Shown one piece after another: positions 1,263 through 19,620 of a stretch of DNA of 64,000 nt. A model generated the notes under the pieces. The model did no database searches and was not told the origin of the DNA. It saw only the letters and a list, made by a program, of their open reading frames with translations. Both the position numbers and the translations under genes were made by a program. Origin of the DNA: Nitratidesulfovibrio termitidis HI1 (GTDB lineage Bacteria; Desulfobacterota; Desulfovibrionia; Desulfovibrionales; Desulfovibrionaceae); NCBI RefSeq assembly GCF_000504305.1, contig NZ_KI632512.1:89307-153306 (forward strand), in the 5' to 3' direction. How positions within the stretch are numbered: position 1 is the stretch's first letter; the number at the start of each line of letters is the position of its first letter.

Positions 1263-1457
1263 GGGGTGTTTCTAAATTAGGATTTTCGTTCGTTGGCAAG
1301 GAAAACGAGCCTGTCGTGAGGGAGTATACTCTTGTCGTATTTGACCGAGCCTTAGCCGTTAGGTGAGCTTGCGAACCTTACGGATAAGGACAGCAGAGCT
1401 ATGGCAGGCGAAGTTTGACGTAGCCAACGGGCGAAAGGACTATTTGGAAACAGCCCC
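1263..1457 (-). repeat. Dispersed inverted-terminal-repeat element, copy A (195 bp)
   Basis: This non-coding element fills the space between anfH and nifI1. Its ends, 1263-1297 and 1423-1457, are imperfect inverted repeats of about 35 bp that share GGGG, TGTTTC, AAAT, TTTCG and CGTTGGC. One internal palindrome of the form CCGTnAGG...CCTnACGG lies at 1356-1383. The right end touches the anfH stop codon. Two longer relatives occur at 17540-17790 and 19315-19620. No open frame in it looks like a protein of its own. It may end or stabilise the 3' end of the anfH message, or be a non-autonomous mobile element. Confidence 0.8.
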
Positions 1458-2284
1458 TAGTCGGCGATGCCGTACTTGATGACCATCGCTTCCAGCTCGT
1501 CCATGGTGAGGGGCTTGGGGATGACGAAGTTGGTGTTCTCGATGATCTTCTGACCGAGTATGCTGTATTCCAGGGCCTGGTTTTCGGCGTCGTCGTACTC
1601 CGTCACGGTCTTCTTGTTGAATTCCGCCTTCTGCACGATGTTGTCGCGCGGCACGAAGTGGATCATCTGGGTGCCGATGGCGGCGGTGAATTCTTCCAGA
1701 AACTCGCGTTCGCGGTCCACCTTGCGGCTGTTGCAGATGACGCCGCCAAGGCGCACGCCGCTCTGCTTGGCATACTTCAGCAGGCCCTTGCAGATGTTGT
1801 TGGCGGCGTAGATGGCCATCATTTCGCCGGACGCCACGATGTAGACTTCCTGCGCCTTGCCGTCGCGGATGGGCATGGCGAAGCCGCCGCACACCACGTC
1901 GCCCAGAACGTCGAAGAACACGTAGTCCAGGTCTTCGGTATACGCGCCAAGGCTTTCCATGAGGTCGATGGCGGTGATGACGCCGCGCCCCGCACAGCCC
2001 ACGCCCGGTTCCGGACCGCCGGATTCCACGCAGCGGATGTTCTTGAAGCCGCTCTTCACCACCTTGTCGATGGTCACCTTTTCAGCGCCCTGCTCGCGCA
2101 GCACGTCCATCAGGGTTTCCTGCGGCTTGCCGCCCAGGATGAGCCGGGTGGAGTCGGCCTTGGGGTCGCAACCGTGGATGAAGATCTTCTGGTTGTGGAA
2201 GTGCGCCATGGCGGCGGCGGTGTTCTGCGTGGTGGTGGACTTGCCGATGCCGCCCTTGCCGTAGATAGCGATCTTTCTGGTCAT
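1457..2284 (-). CDS. anfH: Nitrogenase iron protein of the alternative (Fe-only type) system
   Basis: This 275-residue protein is the dimeric [4Fe-4S] ATPase that passes electrons to nitrogenase component 1. Visible signatures are the P-loop GKGGIGKST (residues 9-17), cluster ligands Cys97 and Cys132, and Arg100 in GCAGRG, the site ADP-ribosylated in many diazotrophs. The beginning [20 protein letters not shown] and the phrase [20 protein letters not shown] agree, from memory, with AnfH more closely than with Mo-type NifH, and the anfD fragment supports this. The start follows GGAGG. It is the first gene of the operon, behind a candidate sigma54 promoter at 2357-2373. Confidence 0.9.
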
Positions 2285-2356
2285 GGTGGGCCTCCGTTTC
2301 GGGGATGCGCTGCGGTTGCGATGCGTGGGGATTGCGCATCGGATATGCCGCCCATA

Positions 2357-2373
2357 TTGCATGGGGTGTGCCA
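2357..2373 (-). promoter_or_regulatory. Sigma54 (-24/-12) promoter of the anf operon
   Basis: On the minus strand the sequence reads TGGCAC-ACCCCA-TGCAA, with exactly 10 bases between the -24 GG and the -12 GC, as sigma54 promoters require. It lies about 73 bases upstream of the anfH start. Nitrogenase operons are classically transcribed by sigma54 with an enhancer-binding activator of the NifA/VnfA/AnfA family. Confidence 0.75.
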
Positions 2374-2450
2374 TGCATGCGGAGTGCGCCAGGATCGGAG
2401 GATGGGTATGGCCGTAGGGGTAGATAAATGCGGAAGGGAAGGCGGATATG

Positions 2451-2562
2451 GTGCGGTGTGGTACGTTATGCAGGGGCGTGGTGATGCGAAAGTACGTTGG
2501 CGTACGAAGTGTGGTTGAGCGGGGTGGAGTGGCGATGTGCGGAGGAGTGTACGCTGTGGTGC
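2451..2562. promoter_or_regulatory. Three GTAC-N6-GTAC-like upstream activator sites
   Basis: A perfect GTAC-N6-GTAC lies at 2492-2505. It is flanked by single-mismatch copies GTGC-N6-GTAC at 2451-2464 and GTAC-N6-GTGC at 2549-2562. They are 80-190 bases upstream of the -24 element, a normal enhancer distance. From memory, GTAC-N6-GTAC is the dyad bound by VnfA-type activators of alternative nitrogenases in Azotobacter. The assignment to such an activator is inference, because no activator gene is in the window. Nothing else was recognised between 2374 and 2773. Confidence 0.55.
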
Positions 2563-17533: not shown

Positions 17534-17539
17534 TCTTTA

Positions 17540-17790
17540 GGGGCAGTCTCTACATTGTCTTTTTGTCCGTTGGCAGCGCCAGACTTCGCCTTCCATGGCT
17601 TTGCTGTCCTTATCCGTAAGACTCGCGCTGCGCGCTCGCCTAACGGCTAAGGCCCGGTCGAATACGGCAAGAGTACGCGTTGCGGTCGCCATCCGTAAGG
17701 CTCGCAAGCTCACCTGACGGCTAGGGCACTCCCTCATGGCCGTCTCGCTTTTCTTGCCAACGAACAAAATCCTGATTTGGAGCCAACCCC
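17540..17790 (+). repeat. Dispersed inverted-terminal-repeat element, copy B (about 251 bp)
   Basis: This is the same family as copies A and C. The left end (GGGGCAGTCTC...CCGTTGGC) and right end (TTGCCAACGAACAAAATC...CCAACCCC) are imperfect inverted repeats. Two internal palindromes CCGTAAG...CTAACGG lie at 17614-17646 and 17693-17720. It starts 6 bases after the cdaR stop, in gene orientation, and separates cdaR from glmM. The remaining bases up to 17961 hold no gene. Confidence 0.82.
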
Positions 17791-17961
17791 TGAGCGCGGG
17801 GGGGCGCGTCCGCGCCTGCCCCGGACACCGTGACCGCCCGTTTCCGGTCCGGCGCACACCGTCCGCAGCCTGTGCGGACCATTGAACAACCCCCGCAAAT
17901 GCTGTACTCAGGCGCACTGGCGGCGCTGGCCGCCAACGCACAATCCAGAGAGGATTCGCAG

Positions 17962-19314
17962 ATGGGCAAACGCCTGTTCGGTACCGACGGCCTGCGCGGC
18001 CAGGTGAACATCTATCCCATGACCGCCGACGTGGCCCTGCGTCTGGGCCTTGCGGCAGGCACACATTTCCGCAATGGCCATCGTCGCCACCGGGTGGTCA
18101 TCGGCAAGGACACCCGTCTTTCCGGCTACGTGTTCGAATCGGCCCTGACGGCGGGTCTGTGCGCCGCGGGCATGGACGTCTACCTGGTCGGGCCGCTGCC
18201 CACCCCCGCCATCGCCTTTCTTACCCGCAACATGCGGGCGGACCTTGGCGTGGTCATATCCGCCTCGCACAACCCGTTCATGGACAACGGCATCAAGTTC
18301 TTCGACAAGGACGGCTTCAAGCTGCCCGACGAGATGGAGAACAAGATTACCGATATGGTGCTGGACCCCGACTGGCAGTGGGATTACCCCGTGCCCGAAC
18401 GCGTGGGCCGCGCCGCCAAGATCGAGGACTCTCCGGGCCGGTACATCGTCTACCTGAAGAACAGCTTTCCCGCGCACCTTACCCTGGACGGCATGCGCGT
18501 GGTGCTCGACTGCGCCAACGGCGCCAACTACAAGGTGGCCCCCCTGGCGCTCGAGGAACTGGGCGCAGAGGTCATCAAGATCGGCACCGAGCCCAACGGC
18601 CTGAACATCAATCACCAGTGCGGTTCGCTGTACCCCGGCGTGGCCGCGGGCAAGGTGCTGGAAACCCGCGCCGACGTGGGCCTGGCCCTGGACGGCGACG
18701 CCGACCGGCTCATCGTGGTGGACGAGAAGGGCACCGTGCTCGACGGCGACCAGATCATGGCCCTGTGCGCGGACGACATGCTGCGGCGCGGCGCATTGCG
18801 CAACAACACGCTTGTGGCCACGGTCATGAGCAACATGGCGCTGGAAGTGTACATGAAGGAGCGCGGCTGCAAGCTGCTGCGCACCCCGGTGGGCGACCGC
18901 TACGTGGTCGAGGCCATGCGCCGCGAGGGCGCAAACCTGGGGGGCGAGCAGTCCGGCCACCTCATCTTCATGGACCACGGCACCACCGGTGACGGCCTGA
19001 TGGCCGCCCTGCAGATTTTGCGCATCATGCGCGAGCGCGACCGGCCACTGTCCGAACTGGCGGGCCAGTTGCAGCTTTTCCCGCAGGAGCTTATCAATGT
19101 TCATGTGGAGCGGAAGATTCCCTTCGAGCAATGCCAGCCTGTTCTGGACGGGGTGGCCAAGGTCGAGGCGGAACTGGGCGACAGGGGCCGCGTGCTGCTG
19201 CGCTACTCGGGCACCGAGGCCGTCTGCCGCGTGATGGTGGAGGGCGAGGACCCCGAGCAGGTGAAGCGGCTGGCCGGGCTGCTGGCGGAGACGGTGCAGA
19301 AGCACCTGCGCTAG
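17962..19314 (+). CDS. glmM: Phosphoglucosamine mutase
   Basis: It converts glucosamine-6-phosphate to glucosamine-1-phosphate for cell-wall precursor synthesis. In the 450-residue protein the phosphorylated serine is Ser102 in [12 protein letters not shown], the metal loop is DGDADR (244-249), and the phosphate-binding loop [10 protein letters not shown] is near the C-terminus. The serine in SASHNP, with FGTDG at the start, marks GlmM rather than other phosphohexomutases. The ATG follows GAGAGGA. In many bacteria GlmM also inhibits CdaA, which fits its place after cdaAR. Confidence 0.96.
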
Positions 19315-19620
19315 TTTGCAAATGGGCCTTTCGCCCGTTGGCGTCCGACCCGAAGGGCGCGAAGCGTGGCCGTTGGGCGAGCTTGCGAGCCCTACGGACA
19401 TCGTGCGCAACGAGGTCAAACATTCCTGCCATGGCTTTGCTGTCCTCACCCGTAAGGCTCGAAGACTCGCCAACGGCTGAGGCTCGGTCGAATACAGGAA
19501 GAGCGCGCTGCGGTCGCCATCCGTAATGCTCGAAGACTCGCATAACGGCTGCCGCATGCTCCCTCATGGCAGGATTGTTTTCCTTGCCAACGAACGAAAA
19601 TCCTCATTTGAGAATGGTTG
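19315..19620 (+). repeat. Dispersed inverted-terminal-repeat element, copy C (about 305 bp)
   Basis: This is the longest of the three clear copies. It starts at the glmM stop codon (TTTGCAAATGGGCC...CCGTTGGC) and ends with TTGCCAACGAACGAAAATCCTCATTTGAGAA, the inverted counterpart. Three internal palindromes of the CCGTnAGG...CCTnACGG type lie at 19370-19397, 19450-19476 and 19521-19548. No protein gene is present. The following 100 bases lead into galU. Confidence 0.82.

Follow-up and report, generated by a model that had tools for sequence, protein, structure and literature searches.

What are the non-coding repeats that lie behind genes of the sulfate reducer Nitratidesulfovibrio termitidis HI1, and what put them there? 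The question arises from three related elements, referred to here as copies 1, 2 and 3, in a stretch of 64,000 nucleotides of this bacterium (contig NZ_KI632512.1, positions 89,307 to 153,306 of the forward strand), and by the window we mean this whole stretch. An earlier reading of the letters alone, the original prediction, had taken them for members of a dispersed family with terminal inverted repeats, either similar to miniature inverted-repeat transposable elements (MITEs) or forming a new class of repetitive 3' RNA element. We observe that the core of the element is gained and lost between species, with a characteristic placement and orientation at genes. As to what the elements are, we consider the chances about even that they form a family of non-autonomous, structure-defined mobile hairpins, with TA as their target, placed at stop codons and carrying a second mobile hairpin in the form of modules.

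Results

Architecture and copy number

Read along the upstream gene, the element consists of an outer arm P1, a stem P2 (TTTCG-CC-CGTTGGC paired with GCCAACG-AA-CGAAA), a short AAAC/GTTT stem, a stem P3 (GCCTGCCATG/CATGGCAGGC in most simple copies) and a tip hairpin P4, and this core is about 147 bp long, arms included. The terminal inverted repeat of the original prediction does exist (about 36 bp), but it is P1 plus P2, in other words the base of one long hairpin. Nor is it shared by all three copies, as had been thought: copy 3 is without the GGGGCTGTTTC outer arms and has TTTGCAAATGGG/CCTCATTTGAGAA in their place, and the outer arms of some further copies are quite different, yet self-complementary. 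The simplest copies measure 103 bp between two conserved ends (exactly 103 in 20 of 78), and longer forms follow stepwise at 153-159 bp (one module), 172-173 (module iii alone), 201-210 (mostly two modules), 221-223, 272-285 (three modules) and 303 (four modules, one nested in another). This two-layer make-up, a core plus separately placed hairpin modules of about 50 bp that occupy three sites (i, ii and iii) in it, had escaped the earlier reading. The three copies lie where they had been placed, with slightly refined limits, and are listed below with their modules and one solo half.

1262..1457, minus strand: copy 1, one module, directly after the stop codon of a NifH-family gene
1349..1399, minus strand: module, site i of copy 1
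17540..17790, plus strand: copy 2, two modules, TA at 17538-17539, 4 nt past the stop
17598..17653, plus strand: module, site i of copy 2
17677..17727, plus strand: module, site ii of copy 2
19315..19614, plus strand: copy 3, three modules, between glmM-like and galU-like genes
19346..19414, plus strand: module iii of copy 3, 69 bp, an inverted module plus extra, absent there in the related genomes G100 and G085
19434..19483, plus strand: module, site i of copy 3
19505..19555, plus strand: module, site ii of copy 3
36164..36188, plus strand: solo 5' half (TAGGGACTGTTTCCAATCCGTCCTT), at the TAG stop of a YgjP-like gene

The solo half is probably a deletion relic from which the interior and the 3' half are gone. 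Within the window, GACAGCARAGCYATGG (at most 2 mismatches) and TTTCGTTCGTTGGCAAGG (at most 3) each match three times, in the three copies only, and for either of them 0 of 100 shuffles reach three matches; the block GTATTCGACCG reads GTATTTGACCG in copy 1. The expectation of a large genomic family was borne out by at least 81 copies in the 4.26 Mb genome, a single contig of 4,257,954 bp. BLAST of copy 2 against this genome gave 61 rows (the best 40 of 158 candidates scored), a pattern search for the A end gave 77 matches, and extraction by one end gave 78 copies with a recognised partner end in 75, one of the 78 being a 50 bp remnant (genome position 3042066). To these 78 we add two complete copies at outer-arm sites and one found with the structure model, a count that leaves out further, more diverged copies, which exist. 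A single local duplication is rejected because the copies are spread genome-wide, and, as predicted, no protein appears to be encoded, no dedicated reading frame being seen in the copies.

Several relatives of the element were met along the way. Two adjacent copies in opposite orientations (L171 4318-4755, genome positions ~3371517-3371954) have the same P4 and wholly different P1 and P3 arms (e.g. CGGGATGTTCGC/GCGAACATCCCG), and represent a diverged subfamily. Further diverged copies holding the module (L067, L313, L037, L320 and L021, all outside the 81) have P3 arms such as ACGGCTTTTTAT/ATAAAAAGCCGT. Miniature forms with P1 alone or P1 and P2 alone (L220 at genome position 1709205, L217 at 1070773) are either deletion products or ancestral stages.

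Placement at stop codons

The 3' position that had been guessed for the copies is real and follows a stricter rule: they lie at stop codons, nearly always in one orientation. At their B-side boundary, 67 of 78 copies have the end of a coding-like frame; 2 have one at the A-side boundary, and these two are among the 67. The count of 67 comes from a stricter stop-codon test, preferred to a cruder gene-context method (52 of 78 'sense') because at least one 'anti' call of the latter, that at glmM, copy 3, is plainly wrong. The B-side stop is TAG in 59 of the 67 copies, versus 55 of 122 background genes, and among 12 loci in other genera, 6 adjoin the TAG stop of a frame of at least 140 codons while the other 6 do not. 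The target appears to be TA and not the codon itself, since the TA of copy 2 lies four bases beyond the stop. Of the 51 copies with a recognisable 3' arm, 13 are flanked by TA on the 3' side and 15 by TG, TA making up 1.48% of dinucleotides in 193 kb. The genes next to the three copies are these.

1457-2374, minus strand: NifH-family gene before copy 1, stop CTA at 1457-1459, TA target at 1458-1459
17531-17533: TAG stop of the YbbR-domain gene upstream of copy 2
19312-19314: stop of the phosphoglucomutase-family (glmM-like) gene before copy 3
19719-20594: nucleotidyl-transferase (galU-like) gene after copy 3

Co-orientation with the leading strand is seen in 52 of 78 copies, a figure not compared with all genes; we read this bias as gene orientation and reject replication-strand targeting. 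Of 19 terminator-like sites between 1100 and 20000, in a scan of loops of 3-8, none lies within the three copies.

Gain and loss at orthologous sites

Empty sites in relatives had been named as a check, and they exist. Eight element sites are filled in some genomes of the genus and without the element in others: copies 1, 2 and 3, X1 (genome position 2259189), X2 (2261580), X3 (2263815), the window site at ~23115 and one site in G066. The cleanest is the following, which reads ATGATGTAACCCGCGCC here versus ATGATG-TA-element-TA-ACCCGCGCC in G038.

23100..23130, no strand: empty target, TAA at 23115; ATGATGTAACCCGCGCC in the N. termitidis genome

At this one site the TA-TA duplication, within the stop codon, is clean; X1-X3 are without a clean TA pair. 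The copy 1 site is without the element in G100 and G085. The orthologous gap of copy 2 is without it in G066, G085, G100, G124 and G038, which is weak evidence of insertion, as the relatives' intergenic sequence does not otherwise align. At copy 3 the element interior is missing in G066 and G124. We dropped the idea that these short forms are a pre-insertion palindrome: their remaining arms look like element arms, so that a deletion scar, with CCT microhomology, is likelier. Of the MITE-like mobility in the original prediction, the many copies, the presence and absence at orthologous sites and the one clean TA duplication stand; a parent enzyme was not found among the few families searched.

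A conserved fold and its range

The element is defined by its fold more than by its sequence, the stems co-varying and the short internal-loop motifs staying fixed. In an alignment of 25 of the 26 copies at 102-106 bp (the 50 bp remnant excluded; three of these lengths are a default value, the partner end being too diverged), two-sided changes occur in 19 of 30 pairs, with 50 two-sided versus 4 one-sided cells, and the number of paired cells, the two-sided counts and the covariation score are each reached by 0 of 500 shuffles. Such rarity of one-sided changes is unlike an RNA stem drifting via G.U, and one arm may instead be corrected from the other while the element is DNA. Twelve copies from other genera, aligned with no structure supplied, gave the same architecture including P1, with two-sided changes in 34 of 42 pairs; a model-fitted alignment of 17 matches gave 26 of 30, an alignment of this kind leaning to structure. 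At genome position 2891, P1 is wholly different yet self-complementary in each of three species (N. termitidis, G085, G066), and at X2, too, it is replaced by other self-complementary arms. The arm statistics leave out one copy (3501039).

A covariance model of the 25 copies found the core in 43 of 149 genomes of the family, in 14 of 44 genera. BLAST of copy 2 matched 31 of the 149, near full length within the genus only, with shorter, mostly module-like pieces outside it, and a module model matched 8 of 297 genomes of the phylum, all of the same family (3 of 199 genera); each of these searches scored some of its candidates only, 21 for the core model, 5 per genome for BLAST of copy 2 and 19 for the module model. 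Exact matches to a core-plus-module pattern came from 66 stretches of only 5 assemblies (Nitratidesulfovibrio oxamicus, N. liaohensis, Desulfovibrio sp. A2 and two Desulfovibrio metagenome-assembled genomes) in a species-genome collection from which records very near the window were possibly left out. A known RNA family is rejected for want of any Rfam match at gathering score: the window yields only three tRNA-type matches, and six loci searched at E<=1 yield one weak match, far below gathering score. The window also holds a selenocysteine tRNA gene (12406-12495, RF01852).

Which strand folds

On the sense strand, A.C cells outnumber G.T cells in P1 (76 vs 50), in the simple copies (11 vs 4) and in the modules (39 vs 8), so the opposite strand tolerates G.T better. 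When folding is computed with RNA parameters, it is the strand opposite the gene that is more stable in 76 of the 78 copies, in all 12 copies from other genera and in 120 of 127 modules, and the two strands of an element differ by 15.2 kcal/mol on average; the three window copies give the same result with DNA parameters, copy 3 weakly. On this strand, the sequence at the P2/P3 and P3/P4 junctions is GGA...GAC, which forms a tandem G.A/A.G step. We reject selection on a folded mRNA strand, as sense G.T cells never exceed A.C in the sets counted. The notion of a repetitive 3' RNA element is right in part: the position holds, but the best-folding, G.T-tolerant strand lies opposite the upstream gene's mRNA.

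Modules inside and outside the element

A module reads GC, two variable bases, TGC, a variable base, GTC (mostly), a stem with conserved mismatches, and GC. In the fetched stretches of the N. termitidis genome we count 128 module-like hairpins, 69 in the listed copies and 59 elsewhere, one of the latter (L066) being a chance match that was dropped from module counts. In an alignment of 36 of the 113 distinct modules, none of 500 shuffles comes up to the observed number of paired cells, of two-sided cells or the covariation score. By our own grouping of the remaining 58 sites, about 20 lie in loops of terminators or similar hairpins, about 9 in an adjacent C-rich tail and about a dozen in unlisted or diverged element copies, the rest being in other repeats; in particular, at least 4 of the 58 are within element copies missing from the list of 78, and about 9 more are in diverged copies. 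Four loci (L179, L315, L038, L031) belong to another dispersed repeat (TTTTTTGATGCTCACGTACA...TCTCCGCTCAAAAAA), also a module host.

Modules differ in number at orthologous sites. The terminator hairpin CCCTTTAA-AAAGGG at genome position 172557 is bare in G066, and its loop holds a 57 bp module here, without duplicated bases. A hairpin at 4935 has no module in G085, one in N. termitidis and two in G066; at 87519, the element carries two modules here but is free of them in G085; copy 3 has none in G085, two in G100 and three in N. termitidis; and X1 has none here and one each in G100 and G136.

Discussion

How would such elements move? In the mechanism that we propose, the core (P1-P4) would be transferred in one piece to a stop-codon TA, with the B end on the side of the gene. 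Since the B end faces the gene at the TA and the element starts with G, this first G would make or keep a TAG stop. The relevant fold would be that of the strand opposite the gene, with its tandem G.A/A.G steps at inner stem junctions, and an enzyme may make use of it. A smaller mobile hairpin, the module of about 50 bp (GCNNTGCNGTC-stem-GC), would enter the loops of elements and terminators without target duplication and so give the length ladder; its presence and absence are observed, and insertion would be the direction of the change. The mobiliser would be a strand-specific enzyme acting on single-stranded DNA in its folded state, and it would either be supplied in trans or have since disappeared. 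That an enzyme reads the folded non-coding strand and inserts it one way at a stop-codon TA, and that mini-hairpins enter the loops of other hairpins, we put forward tentatively, as possible rather than probable. It is with the same reserve that one may speak, on that reading, of mobile DNA of a new class, identified by its fold and not its sequence, in which the entry of mini-hairpins into other hairpins, transcription terminators among them, builds nested structures.

That said, a number of our results weigh against mobile hairpins of this kind. No mobilising enzyme was found in the few enzyme families searched. TA stands on both sides in only 9 of the 42 copies with both arms recognisable, X1 would need a lost T or decay for its right TA, and neither X2 nor X3 has a clean TA pair. 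At copy 3, G066 and G124 keep P1 and therefore look like deletions, and G085, sister of G100, has no modules; as G085 groups with G100 in a tree of six genomes, precise loss, parallel gains or conversion is needed there. Not all covariation measures stand out: the number of further pair types is reached by 28 of 500 shuffles for the core and by 481 of 500 for the modules, whose pairs with two-sided changes are reached by 80 of 500. Strong flanking arms were present at 18 of the 58 outside module sites in a first test, a tight-loop fold test separated module sites from a crossed control modestly (41% vs 24%), and any enclosing stem of 6 pairs was found at 81% vs 70%. Finally, stems from other genera show a slight strand asymmetry (A.C 12 vs G.T 9), and random 200-nt pieces of the window (n=150) are strand-asymmetric as well, with a mean absolute difference of 9.1 kcal/mol.

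Could the element be an ordinary MITE, whose ends are recognised as double-stranded DNA by a DDE transposase of a TA-duplicating insertion sequence (IS) group, IS630 and IS5/IS427 types being such groups? The TA duplication, the GGGG ends, the lack of coding capacity, the solo ends and the internal deletions would all be at home in this explanation, in which fold and orientation are by-products or due to later selection at gene ends. We nevertheless consider it rather unlikely, both for the movement itself and for that view of fold and orientation: orientation is nearly fixed, and in many copies, as well as at an orthologous site, the would-be terminal inverted repeat P1 has given way to unrelated arms that still pair with each other. 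Moreover, the transposase or RAYT gene with matching ends that the original prediction had suggested looking for was not found in a search of a few enzyme families within the genus. DDE_3 (IS630-type) transposases are absent from all 8 genomes of the genus and are rejected as mobilisers within it. The single DUF4096 transposase match among the 8, in N. termitidis itself, belongs to an IS (L295 1404-2249, genome positions ~3541641-3542486) with ends TAGATAGTGTCGTCA, unrelated to those of the element, and is rejected as the parent. At 15 outer-arm sites outside the 78 copies there are two complete copies, the rest being solo ends, truncated or deleted forms, and 15 proteins beside 12 of these loci show no transposase domain. 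Two inward-facing outer arms 3.8 kb apart (genome positions 1709205 and 1713000) are rejected as an autonomous element, the three reading frames at or between them giving one tetratricopeptide match and no transposase domain. A blastn search of copy 1 against plasmid and phage collections gave no match in either. Part of the element, the P2-P4 region, occurs in a metagenomic viral contig (IMGVR_UViG_3300005405_000220, L373 ~6300-6430).

A second explanation, which we hold to be quite improbable, is that of a structured nucleic acid kept for a function at gene 3' ends, such as a barrier to transcription from the other side or a stabiliser of mRNA ends, and copied by recombination and gene conversion. 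It would account for orientation and stop-codon adjacency, for a fold conserved over 14 genera and for the better folding of the antisense strand; against it, copies come and go at the same gene among close species, and the terminator scan (loops 3-8) found no site at the three copies. Least likely is that modules are immobile, having been deleted from element copies and being ancestral in the terminators that hold them: hairpins are prone to deletion, internal deletion relics exist, and G066 and G124 at copy 3 are deletion-like with their CCT microhomology, but the same module occurs in hosts that are not related to each other (terminators, CCAAGGGGCGGCAG repeats, other elements), perfect palindromes such as AAGAGTATGCTC are restored where the module is absent, and one module copy is nested inside another (genome position 1744996).

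If, then, mobile hairpins are the right reading, this is mobile DNA selected for its structure across at least 14 genera while the sequences of its stems turn over, which lands harmlessly at stop codons, keeps a TAG stop and grows by hairpins entering hairpins. It would suggest that, in sulfate reducers, mobile DNA determines where many genes have their 3' end. The module series 0/2/3 at one site and 0/1/2 at another offer natural material on the gain and loss of palindromes in bacteria.

Comparison with known systems

In the open-licence part of PubMed Central we found no paper describing the element. REP sequences and REPINs with their RAYT transposases are dispersed imperfect palindromes with conserved mismatches, which the present element resembles, also in modules that come without duplication; unlike them, it resides in a genome that gives no match to a Y1 transposase (PF01797; 0 matches in G000, the same search being positive in 5 of 14 control genomes), and a REP/RAYT system is rejected on this ground. 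The attC sites of integrons lie just past a stop codon in fixed orientation, are recognised as a folded bottom strand and have variable stems. Position, orientation and variable stems are likewise found here; unlike attC sites, the present copies occur one by one around the chromosome, and TA is duplicated at one clean site.

The element is short, encodes no protein, has inverted ends and exists in many copies, all of which are marks of a MITE. As far as they are described in PMC2229807, the bacterial MITEs RUP and NEMIS/Correia are 100-200 bp long, protein-free and with inverted ends, RUP having TA as target and NEMIS occurring in forms of ~107 and ~155 bp, set apart by an internal stretch of 50 bp. 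Size, lack of protein, inverted ends, the TA target of RUP and the ~50 bp step of NEMIS are shared; the present element differs in stems that covary across genera, fixed loop motifs, a nearly fixed orientation and no parent IS found. We would call it MITE-like in its target and folded-single-strand-like in its constraint, its membership among MITEs being established in part only, for want of a parent.

Mitochondrial repetitive hairpin-forming and double-hairpin elements are, in the account of PMC2800124, mobile and protein-free, with hairpins inserted in tandem, and in these respects similar; their helices are conserved and their loops vary, whereas here it is the reverse. Closer to home, Desulfovibrio desulfuricans ND132 has, according to a passage of PMC3409199, GC-rich hairpins at coding-region junctions that are hard to sequence and were suggested to be terminators, and we take these as a lead only to candidate members of the present family. 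A match in build comes from the BOX elements of Streptococcus pneumoniae, short intergenic repeats with fixed end parts, variable internal modules, terminal inverted repeats and hairpin folds, for which mobilisation in trans has been proposed (as described in part of PMC3049150). By its length ladder and by the module differences at orthologous sites, our element, too, is built of end parts with internal modules whose number varies, and it shares the shortness, inverted ends, hairpins and proposed mobilisation in trans. Unlike BOX as there described, it lies at stop codons in a nearly fixed orientation, and its modules enter three sites as well as unrelated hairpins, while boxB modules stand in tandem in one place.

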